Assembly (NCBI GenBank): GCA_022823945.1
Contig: JAJEBK010000014.1
Location: 1 to 64,000, forward strand
Length of the DNA: 64,000 nucleotides
Origin: Anaerolineae bacterium
GTDB taxonomy: Bacteria > Chloroflexota > Anaerolineae > Aggregatilineales > Phototrophicaceae
Direction: 5' to 3'
The notes under the pieces were generated by a model, which was not told the DNA's origin, did no database searches, and saw nothing but the letters and a program-made list of their open reading frames with translations. The translations under genes were made by a program, and so were the position numbers. Each line of letters begins with the position of its first letter. Position 1 is the first letter of the stretch. Positions 4,689 through 56,090 of this stretch are shown here, piece after piece.

Positions 4689-5072
4689 ATGGACATAATA
4701 GAATACGACCAGCTAGCCAACTGGCTCACCCGCTGCCGTGCAATCGTCAAGAAGATCGACACCGCGCAGGATTACTTGCAGCCCGACTTGCCTCTCTCGG
4801 CCAGCGAAAACCTGGACTACGCCAAGCAGGAAACCAAAGCGCTGGAGCGCGAGATCAATCTGCGCGTCAAGGTACTGCACACGAAACTACAAAACGAACT
4901 GCCCTTACAGGCGAAATCTGGCAGGCGATTGAAACAGAAGCAACACGCCAATTGCCCGTATGAAGATTTGAGGCAGAATCGGGCGACCAGACAGATCGCC
5001 CCTGCTCTTGCTGGCAAAGCGCTCGAACAGCTTATTCGCAAGCGCCTTCGGTCTGTAGCAGGTCGATGCTGA
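4689..5072 (+). CDS. Hypothetical protein (C-terminal part doubtful)
   Basis: ORF only; N-terminal ~75 aa look protein-like (MDIIEYDQLANWLTRCRAIVKKIDTAQDYL...); the tail overlaps the convergent gene. Confidence 0.3.
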   Translation: MDIIEYDQLANWLTRCRAIVKKIDTAQDYLQPDLPLSASENLDYAKQETKALEREINLRVKVLHTKLQNELPLQAKSGRRLKQKQHANCPYEDLRQNRATRQIAPALAGKALEQLIRKRLRSVAGRC

Positions 5073-7155
5073 TCCAGCCGCTTTGACCGAGATAGTCGAC
5101 CAGGAACCAATTGGCCGTGCGCCCTTCCACCGACATCGCGATATTGTAGGGCACAAGCGCCAGGATGTTGCTGCCGGCTGGCGCATCCCGCAACTGGGCG
5201 ACATTGCTGGTGGTAACCTGACATTCCCGCAACGGGATCGACTCGGCATCGGTCAGCGGCGCCACATGCACAACCTTGCCCGCGCCCGGCACCTGCGCGC
5301 AGTACATGCCGCCTTTTGCATAGATCGAAAGCCGCGCTACCAGCGCCGGGAAGGTGCTGGCATCTTCAAAGACCACCGTGCCGGCACCGTTGAAGCAGAA
5401 CTCGACCCCCGCCGCGACTTCGCCCCAGATATTCAACGCTTGCTCTACACCGGCATTCATCAGCGGGTGCTTGTCGATATCGGCGATGACCACCGGCTGG
5501 CAGCGCACATCATTGCTGACAGTCAGCACCAGATAACCGGCTGGCACATCGGGGCAGATATAAGGCTCTTCCGGAGACTGAGGATAACAGTTGGGCACTT
5601 CGATAATCTGACCGACGCTCAGGATATCGTCGGAGAGTTGATTGAGCTCGTGCAGCGCCTCGACCGTGGTGTCGTATTGCAGCGCGATGCGGTAGAGGTT
5701 TTCGCCAGCCGCTACAACATGCTCGCAGACGGGCAGCGGCGTCGGCGTCACTGTCGGCGTCACTGTCGGAGTTGGAGGTGGTGGCGGGTTGGTCGCTGGT
5801 GGTGACGTCGGTGCTGGTGGTGGGTCGGGCGGGTCGGGCGGATCAGGCGGGTCGGGCACCGGGAATTCCCAGGCACCAATGTCACAAGCAGAACCTTGGG
5901 GACGCCGCGTATCGACCACATCATCGTCCGGGTCGTCCAACTGGAGGCAAAGATCATTATCGGCAGCATCAATCGCCGGGTTGCCCTCTAGCAACTCGTG
6001 ATAAATGACATCCTCAATTGCTCGCAGCGAGCTCAGTTTCAGCGCCGCCAGTTCTTCTTCAGCAGACTGGATGCTCAATTCAGCATCGTCCCCAGCCGCT
6101 TGCGCTTGTGATTCGGTATTGGCGTCAGGGCAGGAGTTGTCCTGAATGTAATTGGCTGAATTGTCCAGGATGCTGTAGGGGCTAATGCCAGGATCGCAAT
6201 GGAGAATGTCGCCAGCCAGCGCGCCGGATATCCAGGTGTTGCCGATGCGCAATGTGGCATTGATGCCGGTCATGGCGATCGAGCCGCCGCGCTCCGTTGC
6301 CGTGTTGCTCGTGAATGTATTGTGCACCAGCACCACCGAACCCGTTGAGACCAAATCTGCCCCGGCGTTGATTGCGCCGCCCTCGCGCGCGCTGTTGCTG
6401 TTGAGCGTCGTGTTGTGCATCACGAGATCCCCATTCCAGATCTCAATCACGCCGCCTTCATCCGCGCTGTTGCTCTGGAAGCCGCTCTTCTTGATTTCCA
6501 CTGTGCCGCCAGCCGCATGGATCGCGCCGCCATCCTGAGATGCCGCGTTGCCAGAGAACATGCTCTGAGAAATCGCCAGCTTGTGCGTGTTGTCGGGAGT
6601 GCCGGCAATGTATATGCCAGCGCCGCCGCCACGACCAGCGATGTTATTCTTCACGACGGTGCTGGTGAGCGTGACTCTGGCATCGTTGGCATAGATGCCG
6701 CCGCCCGAATCCAGCGCCTGGTTGTTTTCTATGCTGCTGTTCGTGAGCGTGAGGCTGCCGCCGTCAATATAAAAAGCCCCGCCGCGCGTGCCGGTCAAGC
6801 CGTTGCTGATTGTCAGGTTGCGGATGGTGACATTGGCGTTATCAATCGTAAAGATAGCGCTCAAATCAGCAGCTGAAAGCGTGTTGTCGCCGCCATCAAT
6901 GGTGAGATCAGCAGTGATGGTGGGCAGCGCCGAGCCGCCCAAAGTTACATCGCTGGTCAGCGTGATTGTATCGGCACCGCTGCCGGCTGTGCATCTGCCT
7001 TGCACCAGATCGAGGTTGGCGGATACGATGGCGGCGCTGAGCGAGCAGTCTTCGTCCACAGATATGCTAGCCGCGAGAACGGGCGCGCCGGACAAGCCAA
7101 CAACCAAGAGCAGCCAGAGTATGATTCGAGCCAATGCGGCGCGTATATGACACAT
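5032..7155 (-). CDS. Secreted right-handed beta-helix (choice-of-anchor/CSLREA-like) protein with Pro-rich linker, LysM and SH3-like C-terminus
   Basis: Signal peptide; ISVDEDCSLSAAIVSANLD N-terminus; repeated GGxIxxxxxxxxxxNSxFxxNxA; PDPPDPP/TPTVTPTVTP linker; LysM CEHVVAAGENLYRIALQYDTTVEALHELNQL; SH3-like VAQLRDAPAGSNILALVPYN...WFLVDYLGQSGWIS. Confidence 0.85.
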   Translation of the reverse strand: MCHIRAALARIILWLLLVVGLSGAPVLAASISVDEDCSLSAAIVSANLDLVQGRCTAGSGADTITLTSDVTLGGSALPTITADLTIDGGDNTLSAADLSAIFTIDNANVTIRNLTISNGLTGTRGGAFYIDGGSLTLTNSSIENNQALDSGGGIYANDARVTLTSTVVKNNIAGRGGGAGIYIAGTPDNTHKLAISQSMFSGNAASQDGGAIHAAGGTVEIKKSGFQSNSADEGGVIEIWNGDLVMHNTTLNSNSAREGGAINAGADLVSTGSVVLVHNTFTSNTATERGGSIAMTGINATLRIGNTWISGALAGDILHCDPGISPYSILDNSANYIQDNSCPDANTESQAQAAGDDAELSIQSAEEELAALKLSSLRAIEDVIYHELLEGNPAIDAADNDLCLQLDDPDDDVVDTRRPQGSACDIGAWEFPVPDPPDPPDPPDPPPAPTSPPATNPPPPPTPTVTPTVTPTPLPVCEHVVAAGENLYRIALQYDTTVEALHELNQLSDDILSVGQIIEVPNCYPQSPEEPYICPDVPAGYLVLTVSNDVRCQPVVIADIDKHPLMNAGVEQALNIWGEVAAGVEFCFNGAGTVVFEDASTFPALVARLSIYAKGGMYCAQVPGAGKVVHVAPLTDAESIPLRECQVTTSNVAQLRDAPAGSNILALVPYNIAMSVEGRTANWFLVDYLGQSGWISIDLLQTEGACE

Positions 7156-7406: not shown

Positions 7407-9617
7407 TTATTCGCAAGCGCCTTCAGTCTGCACCAGGTCGAGGCTGATCCAGCCGCTTTGGCCGAGATAGTCGACCAGGAACCAATTGGCAGTGCGCGCC
7501 TCCGCCGACATCGCGATATTGTAGGGCACAAGCGCCAGAACATTGCTGCCGGCTGGCGCGTCCCGCAACTGGGCGACATTGCTGGTGGTGACTTGGCATT
7601 CTGTCAGCGGGATAGACTCGGCATCGGTCAGCGCCGCCACATGCACAACCTTGCCCGCGCCCGGCACTTGCGCGCAGTGCATGCCATCTTTTGCATAGGT
7701 CGAGAGCCTCGTCACCAGCGCTGGCGAGCTGCCGGTGTCTTCATAGACCACCGTGCCGGCACCACTGAAGCAGAACTCGACCCCCGCCGCAACTTCGCCC
7801 CAGATATTCAACGCCTGCTCCACGCCAGCATTCATCAGCGGGTGCTTGTCGATATCGGCGATGACCACCGGCTGACAGCGCACGCCCTTGCTGACGGTCA
7901 GCACCAGATAGCTGGCTGGCACATCGGGGCAAATGTACGGATCTTCAGGCTGTTGCGGTTGACAATCGGGCAAATCAATCACCTGGCCGATGCTCAAAAT
8001 ATCGTCGGAGAGTTGATTGAGCTCGCGCAGCGCCTCGACCGTGGTGTTGTATTGCAGCGCGATGCGGGTGAGGTTTTCGCCAGCCGCTACAACATGCTCG
8101 CAGACGGGCGGCGGCGGCGGCGTAGCTGTCGCAGTTGGCTGATCGGGTGGCGGTTGGCTGATCGCTGTGGGCGTCGGCGAGGCTGGTGGTAACGTAGGCG
8201 AGGCCGGTGGATCGGGCGAATCGTCATCGTCTGTCTCAGGGTCGGGCGGATTGAGTGGCGGGCTGGGACCATCAACCGGGAATTCCCAGGCGCCAATGTC
8301 GCAAGCGGAGCCTTGGGGACGCCGCGTATCGACCACATCATCTTCCGGGTCGTCCAACTGGCTGCAAAGGTCATTATCGGCGGCATCAATCGCCGGGTTG
8401 CCTTCCAGCAACTCGTGATAAATGACACCCTCAATTTCTTGCAGCGAGCTCAGTTTCAGCGCCGCAAACTCCTCATCAATGGTCTGGACAACCAGCTCGG
8501 TGTCTTCTGCAACCACATACACCACAAACGGTTCCACATTTTCGGCGCTTGCTTGCGCTTGAGCTTGTGAATCTGCATCTGCTCGATCGGGACAGGAGTC
8601 GTCCTGAATATAATTGGCTGAGTTGTCCAGGATGCTGTAGGGGCTAATGCCAGGATCGCAATGCAGAATGCCGCCAGCCAGAATGCCGGATATCCAGGTG
8701 TTGCCGATGCGCAATGTGGCATTGATACCGGTCATGGCGATCGAGCCGCCGCGCTCCGTTGCCGTGTTGCTCGTGAATGTATTGTGCACCAGCACCACCG
8801 AACCCGTTGAGACCAAATCTGCCCCGGCGTTGATGGCGCCGCCCTCGCGCGCGCTGTTGCTGTTGAGCGTCGTATTGTGCATCACGAGATCGCCATTCCA
8901 GATCTCAATCACGCCGCCTTCATCCGCGCTGTTGCTCTGGAAGCCGCTCTTCTTGATTTCCACTGTGCCCCCAGCCGCATGGATCGCGCCGCCATCCTGA
9001 GACGCCTCGTTGCCAGTGAATACGCTCTGAGAAATCGCCAGCTTGTGCGTGTTGCCTGTTGTGCCGGCAATGTATATGCCAGCGCCGCCACCGCGACCGG
9101 CCGTGTTATTCTTCACGACGGTGCTGGTGAGCGTGACTCTGGCATCGTTAGCATAGATGCCGCCGCCCGAATCCAGCGCCTGGTTTTCTTCTATGCTGCT
9201 GTCCGTGATTGTGAGGCTGCCGACATCAATGTGAATCGCCCCGCCGCGCGTGCCAGTCAAGCCATTGGTGATTGTCAGGTTGCGAATGGTGACATTGGCA
9301 TCTTCAATACGAAAGATGGCGCTCTTTTTGTCAGCCGAAATCGTGTTGCCGGCGCCATCAATGGTCAGATCGGCGGTGATGATGGGCAGCGCCTCGCCAG
9401 TCAAGGTGATATCGCTGGTCAGCGTGATTGTATCGGTGCCGCTGCCGGCTGCGCATTTGCCTTGCGCAATGTCAAGGTTGGCAGACCCGATGGCGGCAAC
9501 AATTGTGCAGTCTTCGTCCACAGATATGTCAGCCGCAAGCACGGGCGCGCCAGACAAGCCCACAGCCAGGAGCAGCAAAGGCAAGAAACGAGCAGAAAAA
9601 GCGCGTACATGACACAT
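7407..9617 (-). CDS. Paralogue of the 5032-7155 beta-helix/LysM/SH3 secreted protein
   Basis: Same domain order; long near-identical block (GGGIYANDARVTLTSTVVKNN...NYIQD.SCPD); start MCHVRAFSARF aligned with MCHIRAALARI of the first copy rather than the longer ORF start. Confidence 0.85.
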   Translation of the reverse strand: MCHVRAFSARFLPLLLLAVGLSGAPVLAADISVDEDCTIVAAIGSANLDIAQGKCAAGSGTDTITLTSDITLTGEALPIITADLTIDGAGNTISADKKSAIFRIEDANVTIRNLTITNGLTGTRGGAIHIDVGSLTITDSSIEENQALDSGGGIYANDARVTLTSTVVKNNTAGRGGGAGIYIAGTTGNTHKLAISQSVFTGNEASQDGGAIHAAGGTVEIKKSGFQSNSADEGGVIEIWNGDLVMHNTTLNSNSAREGGAINAGADLVSTGSVVLVHNTFTSNTATERGGSIAMTGINATLRIGNTWISGILAGGILHCDPGISPYSILDNSANYIQDDSCPDRADADSQAQAQASAENVEPFVVYVVAEDTELVVQTIDEEFAALKLSSLQEIEGVIYHELLEGNPAIDAADNDLCSQLDDPEDDVVDTRRPQGSACDIGAWEFPVDGPSPPLNPPDPETDDDDSPDPPASPTLPPASPTPTAISQPPPDQPTATATPPPPPVCEHVVAAGENLTRIALQYNTTVEALRELNQLSDDILSIGQVIDLPDCQPQQPEDPYICPDVPASYLVLTVSKGVRCQPVVIADIDKHPLMNAGVEQALNIWGEVAAGVEFCFSGAGTVVYEDTGSSPALVTRLSTYAKDGMHCAQVPGAGKVVHVAALTDAESIPLTECQVTTSNVAQLRDAPAGSNVLALVPYNIAMSAEARTANWFLVDYLGQSGWISLDLVQTEGACE

Positions 9618-9672
9618 AGAGTAGCCGTCCTTATCTACAACGGTCGCCAGCGGCACAGGTTGACTCCCGCGC

Positions 9673-9700
9673 ATTTTATTGCAGAGTGAAAAAGCGGCAA
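9673..9700 (-). promoter_or_regulatory. Putative promoter, copy 2 (TTGCCG-16-TAAAAT on minus strand)
   Basis: See copy 1 at 7210-7237. Confidence 0.4.
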
Positions 9701-9823
9701 GCCGATTCACAATGGAATCTGCGATTGCCCTGCCCGACGAGGCAGCCCGCTTGAATTCGCGCGCCTGCGCTCGCATAATCTGAATTGGTGACCGATCTTC
9801 ACAAACCCGGCATTCACTGTTCT

Positions 9824-21071: not shown

Positions 21072-21251
21072 CAGAGCAATCACTTCAAAATGTGGAAGGA
21101 GAATGCCTTAACCACCGAGGATATTGAGTTGATAGAAGGCACCGAGAATTAAGTGTCTTCGTGTCTACTGTGTCTTCGTGTTCTTTGTGAACCCTGTATT
21201 TTCTCTGTGCCTCGGTGGCTTTGTGGCAACTGATGGTCAATTCGATTGCCC
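21072..21251. mobile_element. Diverged/short copy of family M (MITE-like) repeat
   Basis: cagagcaatcacttcaaaatg...gaatgccttaaccaccgagg...ctcggtgg...attcgattgccc, aligns with the ends of the 58468-58763 copy. Confidence 0.5.
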
Positions 21252-48473: not shown

Positions 48474-48751
48474 CCAGGACAATTGCATCAAATTGAATCG
48501 CTGTACAGGGAAATCGTCCCTAATGCTTTACCACCGAGTACACAGAGTACATTGAGTACACCGAGAGCAAGCAAAGGCATTGCGCTCTGTCGGCACGACT
48601 TACGCGGCGAAAAAGAGACATCTCGAAATTTGCTTCCATCCAGCGGCGAAACATCCACGCCACAAGTGCACAAAGTACAGCCATTTACAGCATGCCCGCA
48701 TAACAAATTCTCGGTGTACTCGGTGGTAAAAAATTGATGCGATTGTCCTGG
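48474..48751 (+). mobile_element. Family M MITE-like element, full-length copy 1 (278 bp)
   Basis: Left CCAGGACAATTGCATCAAATT, right AAATTGATGCGATTGTCCTGG (inverted); body aligns end to end with the reverse complement of 58468-58763. Confidence 0.82.
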
Positions 48752-48854
48752 CGGCGATTTTACAAATCATTGCCAATCGCGCGCACCCTCGCTAGAATGA
48801 AAGCTGGAGCGAAGCTTCTGTATCTTATCGCGCGATTGCGAAGGAGAAAACTCA

Positions 48855-50180
48855 ATGAAAAGCTTGATCAGACTATTACTTGTACTCAGCATCTTTGGGA
48901 CGCTTGTGATCGGCATTAGCGCCCAAGACACCGAAATCAGCCTGCTGCAGTGGAGCCATTTCGTACCTCGTTACGACGAATGGTTCGATGCCTATGCTGC
49001 CGAATGGGGCGAGGCAAATGGCGTCGGCGTCTCTGTTGACCATGTCAATTTTACAGAGCTGTTTTCTACGCTGGCGGCAGAAATAGACGCCGGCGATGGG
49101 CATAGCATCGTCGAAGTCCTGTTTTCGCCGGCTTCGTTCATCGATGGCTTGCACGATCTGCGCGATATCAACGAAGCCGCGGCCGAGATGTATGGCGAGC
49201 GCGCCAGCACCTGCGAAGCCGCCTCATACCTGCCCGTCTCCGATACCTGGTATGCCTATACCCATGGCTATGTGCCCGATCCCGGCGACTATGACATCGC
49301 CCTGTGGACAGAAGCTGGCTACCCCGATGGTCCCAAGACTTATGACGACCTGCTCGAAGGCGGACGCGCTATCTTTGAAGCCAGTGGCATCCCGGTCGGC
49401 ATCGGCATGAGCCCCGAGCTGGACAGCCGCATGGCAAACCGCGCCGCTATCTGGAGCTTCGGCGGCAGCATCCAGGACGAAAACGAAAATGTCGTGCTCA
49501 ACAGCGATGAGACGATCGCCGCTGTCAAGTATCTGGCACAGCTGCAAAACGAAGCGATGACCGACGAAGTCTTTGGCTGGACAGCCGCCAGCAACAACCA
49601 GGGCCTGATCGCCGGTGAGCTGAGCTACATTCTCAATTCCAACTCGGCATATCGCAGCTTGCAGAAGATCGACGAAGCGGCTGCCGCCAACATCGGCTTC
49701 ACCCCGGCGCTGGCTGGACCAGCCGGTGCCTATGCTTCATCGCATGTCTGGCAAATCTATGTCATCCCCAAATATGTCGAAGGCGACGAACTGGCGGCCG
49801 CCAAGCAGTTCATCCTCGACCACACCGCCAACTACAGCGATGTCACCTATCACAGCGAGCTTTACAACTTCCCCTGCCTGCCCGGCACCGTGCCCGAGCT
49901 GGACGGCTGGCTGGAGGCCGATCCCTGGGGCAGCGAGCCGCCCAACAAGTTCGAGGTGTTGAAGACGGTCAACGACTGGTCGGTGCATCTGGGCTTCCCG
50001 GGCGTCACGAACCCGGCTATCAGCCAGGTCTTCGCCGAAAGCATCATCCCCAACATGGTCGCACAAGTGGCATTGGGCGAGATGGATGCGGAAGAGGCTG
50101 TAGCGCAGGCGCACGAACGAATCGAAGAAATCTTCAATGAGTGGCGCGCCAGAGGTCTCGTCGGCGGCGGGGATATGTAG
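48855..50180 (+). CDS. ABC transporter substrate-binding protein, paralogue 2
   Basis: EISLLQWSHFVPRYDEWFDAYAAEWG; same length and colinear with paralogue 1. Confidence 0.88.
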   Translation: MKSLIRLLLVLSIFGTLVIGISAQDTEISLLQWSHFVPRYDEWFDAYAAEWGEANGVGVSVDHVNFTELFSTLAAEIDAGDGHSIVEVLFSPASFIDGLHDLRDINEAAAEMYGERASTCEAASYLPVSDTWYAYTHGYVPDPGDYDIALWTEAGYPDGPKTYDDLLEGGRAIFEASGIPVGIGMSPELDSRMANRAAIWSFGGSIQDENENVVLNSDETIAAVKYLAQLQNEAMTDEVFGWTAASNNQGLIAGELSYILNSNSAYRSLQKIDEAAAANIGFTPALAGPAGAYASSHVWQIYVIPKYVEGDELAAAKQFILDHTANYSDVTYHSELYNFPCLPGTVPELDGWLEADPWGSEPPNKFEVLKTVNDWSVHLGFPGVTNPAISQVFAESIIPNMVAQVALGEMDAEEAVAQAHERIEEIFNEWRARGLVGGGDM

Positions 50181-50183
50181 GCT

Positions 50184-50352
50184 GACCCCCACCCCCGGCC
50201 CCACCCCCAGCAAGCTTGGGGTGGGGAGTCATTTCGCGGGGACAGAAGTTTGGGCAGGCGCGGTAACGTTTCGTGAGCGCGGCATAAACTCAAGTCAATC
50301 GGATTTCTCCCCCTTCCCCAGTTCACTGGGGCAAGGGGGCCAGGGGATGGGG
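50184..50352. repeat. Family A-like G/C-arm palindromes upstream of DUF559 gene
   Basis: CCCCCACCCCCGGCCCCACCCCCAGCAAGCTTGGGGTGGGG and CCCCCTTCCCCAGTTCACTGGGGCAAGGGGGCCAGGGGATGGGG. Confidence 0.75.
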
Positions 50353-50357
50353 TTAAA

Positions 50358-50774
50358 ATGGCGGATCGCAAAACTATCCAGGCACGGTCGAAACCTAATA
50401 CCCATACAAAGCGAGAGATTTACGATAACATCAAGTCGCTATCAAGACACATGCGCAAGAATCCGACTTCCGCAGAGGACATCCTGTGGCAGCTTATAAG
50501 AAAGAAACAAATGTTGGGATTCCGTTTCCGCCGCCAGTACGCGATTGATCGTTTCATCGTAGATTTCTATTGTCCCAGCGCCAAGCTTGTCATTGAAGTT
50601 GACGGCGAGGTTCATGATTTGCCGGAGCGCGCGGCTTACGACGCAGAAAGACGACATTATTTGGAATCATTGGGAATCACAGTCCTCCGCTTCTCGAATG
50701 AGCAGATTATTGGCTCAAGAAACGAGGTATTGATGAAATTGAACAATTGGTTGTCGCAGCTTACTTCTGCTTAG
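50358..50774 (+). CDS. DUF559-type endonuclease-like protein
   Basis: RHMRKNPTSAEDILWQLIRKKQMLGFRFRRQYAIDRFIVDFYCPSAKLVIEVDGEVHDLPERAAYDAERRHYLESLGITVLRFSNEQI. Confidence 0.9.
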   Translation: MADRKTIQARSKPNTHTKREIYDNIKSLSRHMRKNPTSAEDILWQLIRKKQMLGFRFRRQYAIDRFIVDFYCPSAKLVIEVDGEVHDLPERAAYDAERRHYLESLGITVLRFSNEQIIGSRNEVLMKLNNWLSQLTSA

Positions 50775-50816
50775 CCCCCTCCCTCCTTGTGGGGGAAGGG
50801 GTTAGGGGATGGGGGA
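50773..50816. repeat. Family A half-element downstream of DUF559 gene
   Basis: TTAGCCCCCTCCCTCCTTGTGGGGGAAGGGGTTAGGGGATGGGGG. Confidence 0.8.
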
Positions 50817-50825
50817 GTGGCACGC

Positions 50826-55952: not shown

Positions 55953-56044
55953 TCACTCCCGCTTGCTGTCACAGGCAGCTATCCGCGCCCATAGTAATCA
56001 GAAAGCATTTGCAGATACAGAGGCTTTCTTTCCTATCTTGCCGG

Positions 56045-56090
56045 CAGGCAATCGCATCAAATTATTTTGCCACTGAGGCACCAAAATAAG
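56045..56090. mobile_element. Solo end of family M element
   Basis: caggcaatcgcatcaaattattttgccactgaggcac matches the left end at 58468. Confidence 0.65.

Follow-up and report, generated by a model that had tools for sequence, protein, structure and literature searches.

What occupies the space between two solute-binding protein genes of a Chloroflexota bacterium (3.51 Mb draft genome, 55 contigs), and which enzyme could have placed it there, is the question raised by positions 48474–48751 of the window, the 64,000-nucleotide stretch of DNA analysed here. The initial annotation had described this 278-bp sequence as a MITE-like, non-autonomous element with terminal inverted repeats (TIRs). The genes on either side (47076–48437 and 48855–50180) are tandem duplicates, 70% identical to one another. 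Elsewhere the window holds two tandem genes (5032–7155 and 7407–9776), 84% identical, whose large protein products are probably extracellular and contain a LysM-like stretch as well as a region rich in repeats.

Ends, copies and target duplication of family M

The TIRs of approximately 20 bp are present as described, CAGGACAATTGCATCAAATT on the left (48475–48494, + strand) and CAGGACAATCGCATCAATTT on the right (48731–48750, − strand), and the full-length similarity reported earlier to the reverse complement of 58468–58763 was recovered at 77% identity (E 1e-44). The latter segment is a second full-length copy of the same family, M (296 bp, − strand), with a target-site duplication (TSD) of CGGTTTCCAG/CGGTTTTCAG matching at 9 of 10 positions. 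The original boundaries, which correctly enclosed an element with TIRs, were one nucleotide too wide at each end: because a comparison of copies places the outermost C...G pair (48474 and 48751) in a 10-bp target duplication, the element itself spans 276 bp, 48475–48750 (+ strand). Its own duplication has decayed to 7 matches in 10, the left copy being GTGACGATTC (48465–48474) and the right copy GCGGCGATTT (48751–48760).

Two genome-wide checks, for other copies with the same ends and for target-site duplications, came out in favour of a mobile family. The TIR CAGGRCAATYGYATYAAATT has 67 matches in the genome at up to three mismatches, against 0 for a reversed control pattern, and the full element used as query finds 77 matching stretches. 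TIR pairs 217–326 bp apart were extracted as 30 copies, whose flanks show one sharp peak of identity, 62% at a duplication length of 10 bp vs 23–37% at 5–9, 11 and 12 bp. Duplications matching at 8 or more of the 10 positions occur in 13 of the 30 copies (0.18% in a shuffled-pair null), and five are perfect. Within the window the family and its relatives are further represented by a decayed M copy retaining the inner arrays and one TIR (62705–62805), a fragment of a related element with a TIR and an array (56044–56085, + strand), and a decayed related element with a TIR-like end and inverted arrays (21072–21226, + strand). M is short, non-coding, multi-copy and bounded by TIRs, and it has a TSD of fixed length, so that both criteria for a MITE are met and its assignment as a non-autonomous element of this type holds.

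An autonomous ISAs1-family partner

The initial annotation had suggested looking for an autonomous transposase that shares the TIRs of M, and one was found in a sister species. Genome G030, of the same genus, contains an intact 1,245-bp insertion sequence (IS) whose TIRs, CAGGGCAATCGCATCAAATC and CAGGGCAATCGCATCAAAAT, are those of M, which is flanked on both sides by a perfect 10-bp duplication (AATCTGTGCC), and which encodes a 380-aa ISAs1-family transposase (NF033564, E 6e-123). Because this IS combines the ends of M with a duplication of the same length and an ISAs1 transposase, family M is an ISAs1-derived MITE. In an order-level relative (G039), TIR pairs about 1.2 kb apart are complete ISs with an ISAs1-family transposase and perfect 10-bp duplications (TTCTGTATCC, GTCGCGCCCC). 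TIR copy number ranges from 0 to 350 across 60 relatives, and from 1 to 350 among congeners, nine of 34 of which carry the transposase or pieces of it. No ISAs1 transposase copy was found in the window's own draft genome, and M may therefore be inactive there.

DDE transposition of M by an ISAs1 enzyme is well supported, in that TIRs, duplication and autonomous partner are all directly documented, while mobilisation in trans remains an inference. Like ISAs1-family ISs and their MITEs, M has TIRs starting with CAGG and makes 10-bp target duplications, and its autonomous partner carries the DDE transposase of NF033564/PF13808; unlike the autonomous ISAs1 elements, M has no transposase and contains inverted iteron arrays. 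No published ISAs1 MITE with the sequence of M was found in the open-access literature.

Iteron arrays inside M and the GxxExxY gene

The inner arrays of M lie at 48530–48567 (ACCACCGAGTACACAGAGTACATTGAGTACACCGAGAG, + strand), a repeat that also makes up the arms flanking the GxxExxY gene of this genome, and, inverted, at 48710–48727 (ACCACCGAGTACACCGAG, − strand). They are present on both sides in 26 of the 30 copies at near-fixed offsets, mostly some 25 and 55 nt from the ends. The blocks that they contain, CACCGAGTACACAGAG... and CTCGGTGTACTCGGTGG, are missing from autonomous ISAs1 elements (L095, L092) and occur at many genomic sites devoid of ISAs1 TIRs, and for these reasons they are a module separate from the ISAs1 ends. 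In M this module takes the form of a geneless pair of inverted arrays of approximately 9-bp iterons (ACC-CACCGAGTA...). It had been remarked that many environmental genomes contain related 'ctcggtg..ctcggtgg' repeats; this is right, but the repeats belong to the distinct GxxExxY-tied module and are not what makes M a MITE.

The genome has a single gene of the PF13366/TIGR04256 (GxxExxY) family, at C46:15073-15417 between two ABC half-transporter genes, with TTACCACCGAGGGCACCGAGTTAGAGGAGTGCACCGAGGGT to its left and an inverted TTACCACCGAGTACACCGAGTTTTGAGAGTACACCGAGAGT to its right, the same iteron arrays as in M. The ISAs1 TIRs and the 10-bp TSD are absent at this locus. The encoded protein matches TIGR04256 with E 7.5e-43 and 145.6 bits (curated cut-off 35), and residues D63, E73 and K75, invariant in GxxExxY, correspond to the conserved residues of PD-(D/E)XK enzymes. 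GxxExxY is assigned to the PD-(D/E)XK nuclease family, its catalytic activity being inferred from these conserved D, E and K residues only, and a PDB sequence search gave no relative at E below 0.1. The open-access literature yielded no description of a function or flanking repeat for TIGR04256 GxxExxY or PF13366 PDDEXK_3. GxxExxY genes were found in none of 50,697 phage records and in 8 of 72,556 plasmid records. One genome (G132:C14:59628-65351) has three of them within 6 kb.

Array-bracketed genes across phyla

Of 301 sampled genomes of the phylum, 59 contain GxxExxY genes. A broader survey drew 80 loci from about 20 phyla, archaea included; 77 of these loci were usable, and each was scored by the best inverted match between the 300 bp upstream and the 300 bp downstream, a score of at least 30 being considered strong. 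Strong flanking inverted repeats characterise 61 of the 77 GxxExxY loci, vs 6 of 396 ORFs taken from these loci as controls (p 1e-33; median scores 43 vs 20); the direct orientation gives 22%, and 16 loci have no clear arms. The control-ORF comparison replaces an earlier swap null that was contaminated by iteron types shared between loci.

A typical arm comprises two to four 7-bp iterons with spacers of 1–3 bp, read inwards from ACC, and the iteron types include CACAGAG, CGCAGAG, CACGGAG, CGCCAAG, CACGAAG, CACGAAT and CACAGAT, among others. Of the iterons, 579 face inward and 124 outward. Within a locus the arms differ by a Hamming distance of 0.24, vs 1.73 between loci and 1.29 in the best of 5000 permutations, and iteron and protein distances are correlated (Mantel r 0.43, p 0.0002). 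Bracketed genes are also found in three named-isolate records, Bernardetia, Bacteroides finegoldii and Sphingomonas parapaucimobilis, in the last of which the gene lies between fabD and fabG; the Ramlibacter gene has trpE on one side and trpG on the other, as named from their protein products.

Dispersed geneless arrays and hairpins

Geneless copies number from tens to over 200 per gene-bearing genome. Of the 59 genomes that have the gene, 28 contain at least three CACNGAG arrays, vs 7 of the 242 that lack it; counted by genus, the figures are 17 of 31 vs 5 of 148. Such genome counts share ancestry, so that Fisher values overstate their independence and the association is partly confounded by kinship. 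At the extremes the array type strictly matches the genome's own GxxExxY type, amounting to a double dissociation: genus g70, with GxxExxY arms of the CACGAAG type (L166, L169), has 202–318 CACGAAG arrays and no CACNGAG array, whereas G000, G089, G194 and G229 have 61–267 CACNGAG arrays and no CACGAAG array, and G252 has 253 and one, respectively. Three genomes (G178, G232, G274) have many arrays and no detected GxxExxY gene.

Many of the dispersed copies are intergenic hairpins of 60–71 bp with three iterons per arm, at which no obvious target duplication was seen. Of the hairpins tested as single-stranded DNA, most fold far better than shuffled sequences (z −4.7 to −11), an L112 hairpin being the exception (z −1.5). 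Rfam contains no family that matches M or the hairpins at threshold; the sole above-threshold match was an SRP RNA adjoining one hairpin, and sub-threshold resemblances to miRNAs were set aside as chance hairpins.

Evidence on movement

The ABC–ABC junction that hosts the GxxExxY gene takes several forms within the genus. It is a compact, repeat-free 60 bp in five congeners (G007, G008, G016, G020, G021) and contains the gene in many others, while G011 has both arms and no gene, and G014, G022, G023 and G030 retain remnants. These forms show gain or loss at one site, which alone is no proof of transposition, and are compatible with gene-bearing forms decaying into geneless ones. No consistent target duplication was found for GxxExxY elements, the median being that of the null, and neither excision nor recent insertion of such elements was observed.

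In genus g70 some hairpins are vertically inherited at orthologous sites, and one intergenic spacer carries different hairpin types in different species. No clean empty site was found for the g70 hairpins, the comparisons yielding mostly conserved sites, rearrangement breakpoints and replacement by another hairpin. Synteny breakpoints between g70 species coincide with hairpin positions (L307 7376-7513 and 886-978), which suggests recombination between hairpins. In Ramlibacter sp. Leaf400 (L221 3405-3450 and 3915-3945) the GxxExxY gene is flanked by a 25-bp direct repeat (84%) that takes in the ribosome site together with the trpG start, as if duplicated by insertion; this locus, and the few others with similar direct repeats, are retained as leads only.

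A two-part model and its alternatives

The best explanation, to which we assign a probability of roughly three in four, is that M is an ISAs1-mobilised MITE and that the GxxExxY gene and its arrays constitute a REPIN/RAYT-like pair. On the ISAs1 side, the DDE transposase would bind the approximately 20-bp TIRs and insert M with a 10-bp target duplication, and M would be a vehicle spreading array pairs by ISAs1 transposition. On the other side, a small, iteron-specific GxxExxY nuclease would act on inverted iteron arrays, recognising its own iterons and cutting or nicking there; repair or strand transfer following the cut could then copy the array-bounded DNA, and this action would spread or maintain array-bracketed genes together with hairpins or array pairs that lack a gene, with a matched iteron sequence particular to each lineage. 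The arrays, their orientation, the identity between arms, the co-variation with the protein and the matched dispersed copies are observations. DNA recognition, cutting, copying and mobilisation by GxxExxY are inferred, no step having been demonstrated.

It is unlikely that GxxExxY is merely a passenger in array-bounded elements moved by another enzyme, even though arrays without the gene are far commoner than arrays with it, three genomes have arrays and no detected gene, and for one family that carries arrays, M, movement by ISAs1 is well supported. Genes bracketed by arrays of differing iteron type are found across about 20 phyla, the arms of a locus match each other, the iteron co-varies with the protein, and the GxxExxY locus has neither ISAs1 TIRs nor a 10-bp TSD. 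The position of the arrays immediately next to the coding region at either end, and of the dispersed copies in intergenic DNA, could alternatively point to operators or insulators of the GxxExxY gene whose scattered copies regulate other genes. This is distinctly unlikely, since a regulator site requires neither an inverted downstream copy nor hundreds of hairpins, and a single spacer holds different hairpins in different species.

Two further alternatives concern M itself. Were its inner arrays subterminal sites bound by the ISAs1 transposase and without connection to GxxExxY, their near-fixed offsets from the TIRs, which hold across subfamilies, would be explained, but autonomous ISAs1 elements lack such arrays, and many places where these arrays are found, those around GxxExxY among them, have no ISAs1 TIRs, making this proposal very improbable. 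Finally, the long hairpin into which M folds as a single strand (z −6.6) is all that speaks for an ordinary conserved regulatory or RNA element that is not mobile; given the 10-bp TSD peak, the autonomous partner, the variation from 1 to 350 TIR matches among congeners and the absence of an Rfam family at threshold, this notion is hardly tenable.

Relation to known repeat systems

GxxExxY genes are annotated across prokaryotes and their role is not known, while short repeats of the 'CACAGAG/CTCTGTG' type are common in many environmental genomes and are here tied to these genes. The link gives an orphan nuclease family a testable function and accounts for a large class of dispersed repeats, and it predicts nucleases whose DNA specificity is readable from their own flanks. 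No description linking GxxExxY to repeats was found in the open-access literature. We favour, by a little over even odds, the broader reading that GxxExxY proteins are pan-prokaryotic selfish or domesticated repeat-spreading enzymes, sequence-specific PD-(D/E)XK nucleases that would recognise lineage-specific inverted arrays and mobilise their own gene along with geneless hairpins, as an independent counterpart of RAYT/REPIN in which DUF559 with its G-rich hairpins is maybe a second case.

On either side of the window's DUF559 (PF04480) gene (50358–50774), at about 50308–50352 and 50774–50817, are G-rich hairpins that end in AGGGGATGGGG and belong to a family represented at least nine times in the window. 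Among three plasmid DUF559 loci, two (L362, L363) have CCCCTAAATCCCC-type hairpins on both sides, and the third (L364) does not clearly do so. DUF559 may thus represent a parallel nuclease–repeat system.

GTAG- and CGTC-tagged REPs are short, dispersed intergenic palindromes (PMC3733652), a description that the arrays share; tag, make-up and linked protein family differ. The closer parallel is REPIN/RAYT (REPtron), in which one nuclease gene has inverted flanking repeats that match dispersed hairpins, and enzyme and repeat co-vary (PMC3116915, PMC8266576). A Y1/RAYT enzyme was ruled out as mobiliser, there being no PF01797 (Y1_Tnp) match in the genome of the window, and membership in the REPIN/RAYT system itself was rejected because that genome has no HUH Y1 transposase and no GTAG-tagged flanking REPs. 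The GxxExxY gene likewise is flanked by inverted repeats, which match hundreds of dispersed intergenic hairpins and co-vary with the protein. Where the REPIN/RAYT enzyme uses an HUH Y1 tyrosine, GxxExxY is assigned to the PD-(D/E)XK family, and where REPIN/RAYT repeats are palindromes with GTAG, GxxExxY arms are ACC-started 9-bp iterons without a GTAG tag. By analogy, the GxxExxY/array module is proposed to work like REPIN/RAYT, with an unrelated nuclease in place of the RAYT enzyme.
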